Assembly (NCBI RefSeq): GCF_001999325.1
Contig: NZ_MVAR01000015.1
Coordinates: forward strand, 1 to 64,000
From: Thioalkalivibrio versutus
Lineage (GTDB): Bacteria > Pseudomonadota > Gammaproteobacteria > Ectothiorhodospirales > Ectothiorhodospiraceae
Direction: 5' to 3'
Length of the DNA stretch: 64,000 bases
In this document: piece after piece, positions 49,810-54,913 of the stretch
Layout: every line of letters starts with the position of its first letter
Position numbering within the stretch: position 1 is the first letter of the stretch
Position numbers and translations under genes: made by a program
Notes under the pieces: model-generated
The model's database searches: none
The model's input: only the letters and a program-made list of their open reading frames with translations
What the model was told of the DNA's origin: nothing

Positions 49810-50364
49810 TCAGGTCCGGGCGAGGATGCGGTAGGGCCCGGGATGGCCGTCTTTTCCCGACTCGACCAGCGCAATCGTGTCCGCCAGCCAGCGCAGGGGC
49901 GGTTCGATGCGTTCGGTGTCGGGCGGCGCGGCGTGGCGTCGCAGGGACACGTGGGGTCGGAAGGGACGCGGCGGACCGAGATCGATACCGCAGTCGTTGC
50001 ACAGGGCATGTGCCTGCTCGGCGAGGTCGGCCAGTGCGGCGGGCGGCTCGGCAGGAGCGGCCCAGGTGATGCGCGGCCCGGTGAAGTGACCCAGATGGTC
50101 CAGCGTCAGGTCGATCGGCGCGCAGGCGAGTTCCGTGATGCGCCCGGCCAGACAGTCGGCCTGTCCGACCGGGATCGTTCCGGCGAAGGCCAGCGTCAGG
50201 TGCAGGTGATCGCGCGGGACCGGTCGGCCGGGGCCGTCGAGTGCCTGGCCGAGGCGGGCTAGTGTGGCGCGTGTGGGGTCGTCGGGCCACAGGGCCAGAA
50301 AGACCCGCCGGGCTGCGGGGGATGCGGCCACCGATTCAGCCGCGCGGGCGGGGGAGATTCTCAC
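49810..50364 (-). CDS. thpR: RNA 2',3'-cyclic phosphodiesterase (2'-5' RNA ligase family)
   Basis: A 184-residue member of the two-histidine phosphoesterase superfamily. The catalytic motifs are HLTL at residues 55-58 and HVSL starting at residue 138. VFLALWPDDPTRATLARLGQ is the conserved N-terminal core. The proposed start is a GTG at 50364, overlapping cbrB by 29 bp; a GTG at 50331 avoids the overlap and is possible. It follows cbrB in the position where pseudomonads have pcnB. Confidence 0.88.
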   Translation of the reverse strand: MRISPARAAESVAASPAARRVFLALWPDDPTRATLARLGQALDGPGRPVPRDHLHLTLAFAGTIPVGQADCLAGRITELACAPIDLTLDHLGHFTGPRITWAAPAEPPAALADLAEQAHALCNDCGIDLGPPRPFRPHVSLRRHAAPPDTERIEPPLRWLADTIALVESGKDGHPGPYRILART

Positions 50365-51691
50365 GCTGACGGCGTTCCCACAGGGTCTTGCGGCTGATGC
50401 CGAGGGCCCGGGCCAGCTCGGTCTCGGTCATGCTGCCCTGGTTTTCCTGCACGAAGTGCCGGAAATACTCGTTCAGGCTCGAGCCCTTGCCCTTGCGGGT
50501 CGGAAACGCGGGGTTGGGGATCTCGTCGTCCCGGGCCGGAGTGCCCGTCGAGAGTCCCATGTGGTCCGCTTCGATGCAGCCATCCGGGCTCAGTACCCAC
50601 CCGCGTTCCAGGGCGTTCGCCAGCTCGCGCACGTTGCCGGGCCAATCTTGCGACTCCAGGGCTTGCCGTGCCGCGTGTGACAGTTGTGGCACTGGCCCCG
50701 AACCGGCCAGTGCCTCGAGGAAATGCCGTGCCAGGGGGATGATGTCCTCGCGCCGTTCGCGCAGGGGCGGGATGGACAATTCCAGGACCCGCAGGCGGTA
50801 GTAGAGGTCGGCACGAAAGGCCTGTTCCGCGATCATGGCCTCGAGGTCGCGGTGGGTGGCCGCTAGCAGGCGCACATCCACCTTCAGGTTCTCGTTGGAC
50901 CCGACCGGGCGGAGCTCGCCATCCTGCAGGACCCGTAGCAGGCGGGCCTGGGCCGCAGGCGCCAGTTCGCCGATCTCGTCCAGGAACAGCGTGCCGCCGT
51001 GGGCGCTCTGGATCAGGCCGGTGCGCGCCTTGACCGCACCGGTGTAGGCACCCTGGGCGTGACCGAACAGCTCGGCCTCGACCAGACCCTCGGGGATGGT
51101 GGCGCAGTTGACCGCGACGAACGGGCCGCTGGCGCGCGGGCTCAGTTCGTGCAGGGCGCGCGCGGCCAGCTCCTTGCCGGTACCGGACTCGCCGCGCAGC
51201 AATACCGTGGAGTGGGTCATGGCCACACGCCGGATCTGATCACGCAATTGCTGCATGGCCTGGCTCTCGCCGATGAGGCCCAGTCCGGGGCGCGGAGCGG
51301 AATCGGTTCCCTCGTCGTCGGGTTCGTCGGTGTTGGGGCGGTCGCGCTCGCGCAGGGCGGCGCGCAGGGTCAGCAGCAGGGCGTCGTGGTCGAAAGGCTT
51401 GGCGATGTAGTCGGCGGCGCCTTCCTTCATCGCGTTGACCGCGGAGGGCACCGACGCATAGCTGGTCATGATGACCGTGGGCGTGTGGGCGAATTCCGGC
51501 AGCAGCTCGATCCCTTCGCCATCCGGCAGGCGCAGATCCACCAGTTGCAGATCGTAGGGATCGGCGGCTGCCAGCGCCCGCGCCTCGGCCAGGTTTTCGG
51601 CCACGCCGACCTCGAAGCCGTGGTGCTCCAGGAATCGGCGCACGGCGCGGCGGATCGGGGCTTCGTCGTCAACCAGGAGGATGCGGGTCAT
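50336..51691 (-). CDS. cbrB: Sigma-54-dependent response regulator, CbrB-like (NtrC family)
   Basis: A 451-residue transcription activator. The receiver domain (1-120) has Asp8, Asp9, the phosphoacceptor Asp52 and Lys in YIAKPFDHD. The AAA+ domain has Walker A GESGTGKE, GAYTGAVKARTGLIQSAHGG (sigma-54 contact with tyrosine in place of the usual phenylalanine) and WPGNVRELANALERG. A Fis-type helix-turn-helix ends the protein at ELARALGISRKTLWERR. It pairs with cbrA, from which it is now separated by a MITE-like insertion. Confidence 0.93.
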   Translation of the reverse strand: MTRILLVDDEAPIRRAVRRFLEHHGFEVGVAENLAEARALAAADPYDLQLVDLRLPDGEGIELLPEFAHTPTVIMTSYASVPSAVNAMKEGAADYIAKPFDHDALLLTLRAALRERDRPNTDEPDDEGTDSAPRPGLGLIGESQAMQQLRDQIRRVAMTHSTVLLRGESGTGKELAARALHELSPRASGPFVAVNCATIPEGLVEAELFGHAQGAYTGAVKARTGLIQSAHGGTLFLDEIGELAPAAQARLLRVLQDGELRPVGSNENLKVDVRLLAATHRDLEAMIAEQAFRADLYYRLRVLELSIPPLRERREDIIPLARHFLEALAGSGPVPQLSHAARQALESQDWPGNVRELANALERGWVLSPDGCIEADHMGLSTGTPARDDEIPNPAFPTRKGKGSSLNEYFRHFVQENQGSMTETELARALGISRKTLWERRQRENLPRPRG

Positions 51692-51706
51692 GAGTCTTGG
51701 CGGCTA

Positions 51707-52003
51707 GGGAAACACTGATCAATGAACGCGTTCGCGCTCGAGTCGCTTTTGCGTGCGAACAAGGCGCGATGACTGCCGTGCAGTCATTCTGCACAAGGGA
51801 GCCGCAACGCTGTGCGCGCGCCCGTTTTTGATAACAACGGGCGGCCGAGCCTCTGCTTTCAATAACTTGCGGGGTTGGCACCCAAGGTTCCCCGATCCTG
51901 CGTTGCGCCGCTTACAGGTAGAACCACTACCTGTTGCACGACGCGCCTTGTCTCGGAAAACCTGGGGTACCAACGCGAACGTGTTCATTGATCAGTGTTT
52001 CCC
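51707..52003. mobile_element. MITE-like insertion, 297 bp, 30-bp terminal inverted repeats, TA duplication
   Basis: Terminal inverted repeats of 30 bp begin GGGAAACACTGATCAATGAA and differ at one position between the ends (29 of 30). TA flanks both sides (51705-51706 and 52004-52005), as expected for target duplication by IS630/Tc1-mariner-type transposases. No transposase gene lies inside; internal sequence includes a small inverted repeat ATGACTGC/GCAGTCAT near 51769-51788. The right end provides the present stop codon of cbrA. The parent element could not be named. Confidence 0.9.
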
Positions 52004-54913
52004 TAGTGTCAGCAGGAATCGGGCACCGCCCTCGGGGCGGTTGGCGGCCATCAGGGTACCACCGTGGTCGCGCACGATGCTGTAGGCCACCGGCAGGCCC
52101 AGGCCGGTGCCTTGGCCCGCCGGCTTGGTGGTGAAGAACGGCTCGAACAGGCGTTCCAGGCTGGATTCGTCGATTCCGGGGCCGGCGTCGTCGATGGTGA
52201 TCTGGACATGCCGTCCGTGGAGCCGGGCCGCGATGGCGACGGTGGCGTTTTCGGGCGAGGCCTGCTCGGCGTTGGTCAGCAGGTTGATGAACACCTGCAA
52301 CAGCGTGGCATGCGAGCCGCGGACGTGCAGCCCCGCGAGGCCCGAAGTCGTGAATTGCAGGTCGTTGCGCCCGGCCAGGCGCATCAGGCGGATGGCCTCG
52401 GCCACGAGCTCGTCCAGTGCGATGGTCTCGAAATGTCCGGCCGATGGGCCTTCGTCGGCGTGGGCAAAGGTGATCAGCGACTGCACGATGGCGTTGATGC
52501 GTCGCGTCTGAGCGAGGATGTCGTCGGCGATGCCGTGGATCTCCTGCGGATCGTCCTCGAGGGGCAGGGTCTGCGCCAGCGAGGCGATACCGGTCAGGGG
52601 ATTGCCGATCTCGTGCGCGACCCCGGCGGCAAAGCGGCCGATGGAGGCCAGGCGATCGCCGTGGGCGATCTCGGACTCGAGCTGGGCGCGTTCGGTCACG
52701 TCCTCGATCAGGACCACGCGGCCTTCCACCTGACCCTGGGCATCCTGCAGTTCGGAGCGGTGCAGGTTCAGGCGGCGGTTGCCGTTGGGCAGATCCACGT
52801 TCAGCTTGTACCACTGGCGGTCCGGGCTCTCCAGGAAGGCGGTCAGCAGGCCGCTCCAGGGGCTGTCGAGCTGGCGGATGTTCTGGCCCACGGCGTCTTC
52901 CGTGGCGACCTGCGTGAGCTGCGCCAGGGCCTGGTTCCAGCCGGTGATCTCGCCGGTATTGGTGAGGCTGGCTACCCCCAGCGGGAGCTCGTGCAGGATC
53001 TGGCGATGAAAGCGGCGCAGGGCGTCCAGCTCGGCCGCCAGGCCGGACAGCGGCAAGGGGCGGGTCTCCAGCTGTTCCTCGATCCGCCGCAGGCTTTCGC
53101 TCAGGGTGTGGCGTCCGGCGGCATCCAGGCGCAGGTGCTGGTCGACGATCATGCGAGCCAGTACCGGCCCCAGCAGGCCGGAGAGATTGCGCTCGATCCG
53201 TTCGCGGAGGTGGCGCAGATCGCCGCGTGAACGCGTATGGCGGGGCAGGCCGAGATCATCCAGGGCGCGCTGGACCTCGTGGCGCGCCGTGCCCGGGCCC
53301 AGGGTGGCCGCAAGTGCGGTCTCCATTTCGGTGACGTCGCCCGCCAGTGGCAGGCCCGCGCCGGTGGCGGTGGATTCGTTAGGGCAGCAGGCCCGGCCGG
53401 CCTCGGCCTCCTCGGGGTTCGGCCGGGTCAGCAGCGAGCCGACGACGAACAGGACCGCGTTGACGCCCAGGCTCAGCATCAGCGCGAAGGTCCACGGGTC
53501 CAGCATCTCCGCGCGCAAGAGGCGTTGCGGGTCGGGCAGGGCCGTCGCGATCCCGGCATCCGACAGCAAGGGCATGACGAGGGTGAACGCCCAGCCGGCA
53601 ATCCCGGCCCCCAGGCCCAAGAGAAATCCGACCCGGGTCGCCTGTTTCCACAGCATCAGGCCGATCAGGCCCGGCAGAAGTTGCGCCACCGCGGCAAACG
53701 AGATCAGACCCAGCTGCGCGAGGCCCTCGACGACCTGCAGCAGGCCGTAGAAGGCATAGCCGAGCCCGATGATGAACACGATCCAGATGCGCCGCCCCCA
53801 AAGCAGGCGGGTGTAGAGGTTGGCGCTGCGCTCCTCCTCGTGCAGTCGGGTCAGTGGCGAGAGGTAGTTGGTGCCCATATGGGCGAGCGCCAGGGTGGTC
53901 ACGATCATCATCGCACTGGCAGCGGACAACCCACCGATGAAGACCAGCAGGGCGAGGCTGGGCGACTCCAGCAGCCCGGCGATGCCGATGGCGTAATAGT
54001 TGGGCGAGATGCCCAGCCCGGCCGCCTCCCCGGCCCAGTAGAGTACCGGCATCGGCAGGTTCAGCAGCAGCAGGAATGCGGGGAACGCCCAGGCCGCGGT
54101 GTTCAGTGCCTGCGGGTTGATGTTCTCGGTGAACAGCATGTGGAACTGGCGTGGCAGCAGGAAGGCGGCCGCGAAGGCCAGGATCATCATCGCGAACCAG
54201 CCGCCCTGGCGCACCGGCTCGTACAGCGCATCGACCGCCTCGGGATGGGCGGCCAGCCAGTCGTTCAGCCCGCCGAGGCCGCCGAACACGGCGTACAGCG
54301 CCACGGCGGCAATCACGAGGATGGCGAGCAGCTTGACGATGGACTCGAAGGCGATGGCCAGCACCAGACCGGCGTGCTTTTCGCGCGGGGCGATGTGGCG
54401 GGCGCCGAACAGGATCGCGAACAGCGCGATGGTGCCGCTGAAGGTCAGGGCGAGCAGATGCGGCGGGGTCTCCGCGGTCAGCACGGCGGCGGACTCGGCC
54501 ACGGCCTTGATCTGTAGCGCGATGTACGGGAGTACCCCGGCGAGCATGAACAGGGCGACCACGGGCCCAGTGAAGCGGCTGCGGTAGCGAAAGGCGAACA
54601 GGTCGGCCAGCGAGGTCAGCTGCTGTTCGCGGGTCAGGCGCAGGAGGGGACGCAGCAGCCAGGGGGTGGCGGCGAAGGCCAGGGTCACGCCGAGGTAGAT
54701 GGTCAGGTACAGGTACCCCTGGTCGGCGAGGAAACCAAGGTTGCCGTAGAAGGTCCAGGACGTTGCGTACACCCCCAGCGACAGGCTGAACACCCAGCCA
54801 TTGGCCGCCAGTCGGCCTACTCGGGGGACGCGGTCGGCCAGGAACGCAATGCCGAATAGCAGGGCGAGGTAGGCCACCCCGACCGCGTAGATCAGACCCA
54901 GGCTAAGGGTCAC
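51992..54913 (-). CDS. cbrA: Sensor histidine kinase with sodium/solute-symporter-like N terminus, CbrA-like
   Basis: A 973-residue inner-membrane kinase. Residues 1 to about 500 are a sodium:solute symporter-like domain with about thirteen hydrophobic segments. A linker and PAS domain (about 630-750) follow, then a HisKA domain with His767 in [12 protein letters not shown] and an ATPase domain with DDAGPGID and [11 protein letters not shown]. The start is a GTG at 54913, overlapping cbrX by 11 bp. The final codons LGKH and the stop lie in a transposon end; see findings. In Pseudomonas, CbrAB controls carbon-source use and histidine use. Confidence 0.92.

Follow-up and report, generated by a model that had tools for sequence, protein, structure and literature searches.

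An IS5-type MITE between a cbrA-like kinase gene and a cbrB-like regulator gene in Thioalkalivibrio, and its probable effect on their coupling

A MITE of 295 bp separates a cbrA-like histidine kinase gene from a cbrB-like response regulator gene in Thioalkalivibrio versutus. The most probable explanation, to which as a whole we assign a probability of about 0.9, is that insertion of this IS5-type element replaced the tail of cbrA together with its overlap with cbrB, lowering the coupling of the two genes. The DNA analysed was a stretch of 64,000 nucleotides (the window), in which the kinase gene (51992–54913, minus strand; 973 aa, with PAS, HisKA and HATPase_c domains) ends in LTLGKH. The regulator gene (50336–51691, minus strand; NtrC family, 451 aa) is intact and lacks a Shine-Dalgarno sequence. 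Because the HATPase domain extends to residue 970 of the 973, the insertion affected only the variable tail of the kinase.

The pair resembles CbrAB of Pseudomonas in that a sensor kinase is followed by an NtrC-type regulator. Here the two genes adjoin dksA and a gluQ-like gene, as cbrAB does in Pseudomonas. The CbrAB-type domains found were the kinase, PAS and NtrC-type regulator domains. CbrA of Pseudomonas also has an SLC5 domain, and reviews describe CbrAB as unique to the Pseudomonadaceae (PMC6591292, PMC8871633). In contrast, no Pfam family, SLC5 included, was matched in residues 1–471 of the Thioalkalivibrio kinase, its N-terminal half (window 53500–54913, minus strand). For these reasons the name cbrAB is used as a working label.

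The element proper, assigned on its inverted ends, its copies and their flanks, occupies 51708–52002 and, like its target duplications, is given without strand. The duplications, read from the sequence, are CTAG at 51704–51707 on the cbrB side and at 52003–52006 on the cbrA side. The 29-bp terminal inverted repeats lie at 51708–51736 (cbrB side, plus strand) and 51974–52002 (cbrA side, minus strand), and the latter bears the new cbrA stop, a TGA at 51992–51994 (minus strand). With the duplications included, the 33-nt arms 51704–51736 and 51974–52006 are 97% complementary. An earlier, sequence-only reading had correctly recognised a MITE-like inverted-repeat element here, the LTLGKH ending with its stop inside the element, and the cbrB start at 51691. 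Its dimensions of 297 bp with 30-bp ends were slightly too large, and the TA duplication that it proposed is a 4-bp CTAG here and TTAA or CCAG at other copies. The length, the repeats, the CTAG duplication, the presence of related copies (more than 20 in the window genome) and the absence of a transposase are together those of a MITE.

Within the element, a subterminal module, AAGGCGCG..GCAACGC, was identified by sequence in forward orientation at 51761–51810 (plus strand) and inverted at 51900–51949 (minus strand). The same arrangement, AAGGCGCG and GCAACGC separated by about 35 nt that include a small hairpin, recurs as inverted pairs in many copies of the MITE. It occurs once in a 266-bp element of Thioalkalivibrio sp. 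ALMg11 whose ends differ and, against a reversed control, is in strong excess in Thioalkalivibrio and in mild excess in four genomes of other genera (G031, G034, G036 and G057). An 89-codon ORF (51719–51988, minus strand) spans the element, and its product matched no Pfam or NCBIfam family. The spacer RNA is predicted to fold as a single long hairpin (-170.6 kcal/mol, z -12). A search against Rfam gave no match, and the promoter and terminator scan of the element and spacer gave none of either.

Of 28 Thioalkalivibrio genomes with a readable cbrA-cbrB junction, two carry the insertion (the window genome and that of its closest relative examined, ALMg11, G002) and 26 are empty. At every empty junction the cbrA stop and the cbrB start overlap, by 4 bp (ATGA) in 25 genomes and by 1 bp in the other, which bears out the earlier proposal that the insertion removed a stop-start overlap. 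Beyond LTL or its equivalent, the empty-site CbrA tails are 4 to 10 residues long (e.g., PRQDS, PHDDS, PRHKPDGDHA, PLGRKA), PRQDS being the tail in near relatives. In the carriers, then, five residues were exchanged for three (GKH), and the 4-bp overlap for a 300-nt spacer. The sequence-only reading had the three new residues right, but it counted eleven lost where five, PRQDS-like, were lost. It had derived an ancestral tail AAKTHDPHPPG, with a stop at 51669–51671 and a 23-bp overlap, by excising the element. The arithmetic is correct, and relatives do have empty sites, but none of the 26 has that tail or that overlap. When the element and one CTAG are removed in silico, the window junction falls one base short of the closest empty sites, and the resulting frameshift accounts for the 23-bp figure. 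The simplest account of the aligned junctions is that the ancestor had ATGA and that one base was lost at or after insertion, once the reading frame was no longer a constraint there; the ancestral letters are only partly reconstructed.

The insertion lies at the identical base, with identical flanks, in both carriers. Since the two genomes were independently assembled, it is not an assembly artefact, and it is best explained as dating to their common ancestor. In ALMg11 the cbrA stop and cbrB start are 553 nt apart, and the junction MITE is itself interrupted by the 266-bp element mentioned above (L086 2620–2885; G002:C2:247722–247987), which has 32-bp perfect inverted ends. A search of 30 congeners for further copies of this nested element gave partial matches only and no full copy. 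The window copy of the MITE is 98.3% identical to an ALMg11 copy elsewhere and 90.4% identical to the ALMg11 copy at the same junction; near-identical MITEs therefore moved or were exchanged after the two strains parted. The window genome and strain AKL19 also each have a copy at the end of what appears to be the same gene, with an identical RSALRKH tail (L003 and L197), which suggests another insertion common to two species.

In a sample of 58 genomes, MITE copies were present in 16 of 30 congeners and in none of 28 non-congeners. Exact matches to one form of the MITE end were sought in 85,000 species genomes, and among the matches listed there was solely Thioalkalivibrio. Among 106 distinct copies, agreement between the two flanks peaked at exactly the four adjoining positions (0.77, 0.80, 0.64 and 0.88) and was 0.10–0.42 farther out. 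The 4-bp duplication was perfect in 47 of these copies: 32 CTAG, 10 TTAA, and one each of CTAA, CCAG, CTTG, TTGA and CCGG. The IS5 group, whose type is E. coli IS5, makes a 4-bp YTAR duplication, most commonly CTAG (PMC5493358, PMC10359306). The MITE resembles it, in that 43 of the 47 perfect duplications are CTAG, TTAA or CTAA; the CCAG duplication of one copy has no TA inside.

The PF01609 transposases of congeners were inspected for MITE ends. Matching elements, about 1.2 kb long, occur in G029 (three identical copies), G012, G010 and G022; they have GGAAACRCTGATYAATG or close variants at both ends and carry a PF01609/NF033581 transposase. The protein belongs to the IS5 family (it scores 319 bits with NF033581, whose cut-off is 140), and complete flank pairs of these elements are CTAG, GTAG or TTAA duplications. 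Because this IS has the same ends and target, the parent of the MITE is IS5-type rather than IS630-type. The sequence-only reading had expected related ends in the genome, which were found, and an IS630-type transposase with matching ends; the matching ends are on the IS5-family IS of congeners. As in the IS5 group, the partner IS encodes an IS5-family DDE transposase; it has about 17 bp of terminal sequence in common with the MITE, whereas the MITE itself encodes no transposase and has an interior unrelated to that of the partner. One MITE copy in G029 adjoins a full IS5-family element in head-to-tail orientation, a single CTAG being common to both (L125 998–2519). An IS701-family transposase was rejected as partner, PF13546 having been found in just one congener, itself without a MITE copy. 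Neither the window genome, with only one distant protein (32% identical), nor ALMg11 yielded a matching IS5-family transposase; so either the MITE family is stranded in these genomes or the parent is missing from the draft.

Gene ends were counted for the 93 copies with enough flank, the genes being called by a simple codon-score script. A called gene stop lies at or within the MITE in 38 of them. In 25 the native stop belongs to the target, whose YTAR motif includes a TAA or TAG, and in eight the gene stops at the TGA lying 11 bp inside the repeat, with tails in ...GKH or ...RKH, as at cbrA. At unoccupied tolerated sites (intergenic or at a stop), stop codons account for 83 of 290 YTAR and 39 of 96 CTAG sites. 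The 25 of 93 does not exceed what the target motif predicts, and the idea of a special enrichment at stop codons was therefore dropped; target choice and the purging of disruptive insertions explain the share.

The events at cbrAB are best explained as follows. A transposase like that of other Thioalkalivibrio moved the non-autonomous MITE, presumably in trans, to a CTAG-like target some 15 nt short of the cbrA 3' end. Read in the cbrA frame, the inverted repeat (CTA GGG AAA CAC TGA) ends the kinase at ...LTL-GKH, just beyond the ATPase domain. The ATGA overlap became the 300-nt spacer with its long predicted hairpin, and the cbrB start codon was kept. Since the overlap is lost and there is no Shine-Dalgarno, ribosomes ending cbrA could no longer restart directly at cbrB; CbrB would probably be made less efficiently per transcript, yet still be made. 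From the lost overlap and the lack of a Shine-Dalgarno, stop-start coupling has very likely been lost in the carriers. A Shine-Dalgarno at cbrB is absent from both carriers and from the nearest non-carriers, and for that reason cbrB in the latter probably relies on ribosomes finishing cbrA. The dN/dS values of cbrA (0.033) and cbrB (0.100) between the two carriers do not exceed those of pairs with at least one non-carrier (0.05–0.08 and 0.11–0.16, respectively). Both genes remain under purifying selection after the insertion; the system is therefore still in use, with any loss of coupling tolerated or compensated.

The unchanged selection would also fit a fully silent insertion, with cbrB transcribed and translated independently from its own promoter and a leaderless or Shine-Dalgarno-less start. 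The RNA folds, in which the cbrB start codon is predicted to be mostly unpaired in both carriers, are compatible with this, as is the variation of the cbrA tail in length and sequence among congeners, which makes its replacement probably neutral. However, the overlap is kept at all 26 empty sites (25 with ATGA), most of them without a Shine-Dalgarno, suggesting that it matters, and neither the element nor the spacer has a sigma-70-like promoter. Silence is thus a serious possibility, though one that we lean against. The insertion of a TA-duplicating IS630-type MITE into an ancestral 23-bp overlap, with eleven residues lost, has in its favour the reading frame that plain excision yields, but it is barely credible given the 4-bp duplications, including CCAG, the IS5-family partner, and the lack of such an overlap or tail at any empty site. 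The earlier reading was right in outline, but it erred on the target duplication, on the family of the parent, on the size of the overlap and on how many residues were lost.

The element might instead have kept the coupling, either by relaying ribosomes through its 89-codon ORF, which begins 3 nt past the cbrA stop and ends 27 nt ahead of cbrB, or by a hairpin joining the stop to the start, the predicted stem closing near both codons and leaving the start mostly unpaired. Taken together these routes are unlikely: the second insertion in ALMg11 terminates the relay ORF 259 nt before cbrB, and such a hairpin would be formed by any MITE of this kind. With its downstream part lost in ALMg11, the relay was rejected, and the ORF is probably fortuitous. 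That a hairpin in the cbrAB transcript keeps the cbrA stop beside the cbrB start, so that restart persists over the 300-nt insertion, is a very improbable reading of the predicted fold; if true, the transposon's own symmetry would preserve translational coupling. The replacement of the cbrA tail and overlap by an IS5-type MITE, with lowered coupling, remains the preferred explanation.

MITEs within operons and protein ends supplied by MITEs are already known. The Chunjie MITE of Geobacter uraniireducens, in the account of Chen et al. (2008) given in PMC10969869, inserted in an operon without destroying it, as here; it is of another family and genus, and in the present case the kinase tail and the stop-start overlap were replaced as well. 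Copies of QMITE1 and QMITE2 in Coxiella burnetii provide the last codons of adjoining genes, as the Thioalkalivibrio MITE does for its neighbour, but QMITE2 makes 7–9-bp duplications (PMC5896051), in contrast to 4 bp here, and the sequences are unrelated. The event is well supported and ordinary, of a known kind. It introduces a large family of IS5-type MITEs in Thioalkalivibrio, with a stop codon in its target and a further stop in its ends, so that many copies are harmless at gene ends. It also offers a natural comparison of a conserved stop-start overlap before and after its loss: two strains lack it and at least 26 congeners keep it, with both genes under selection. The importance of coupling for the kinase-to-regulator ratio thereby becomes directly testable.
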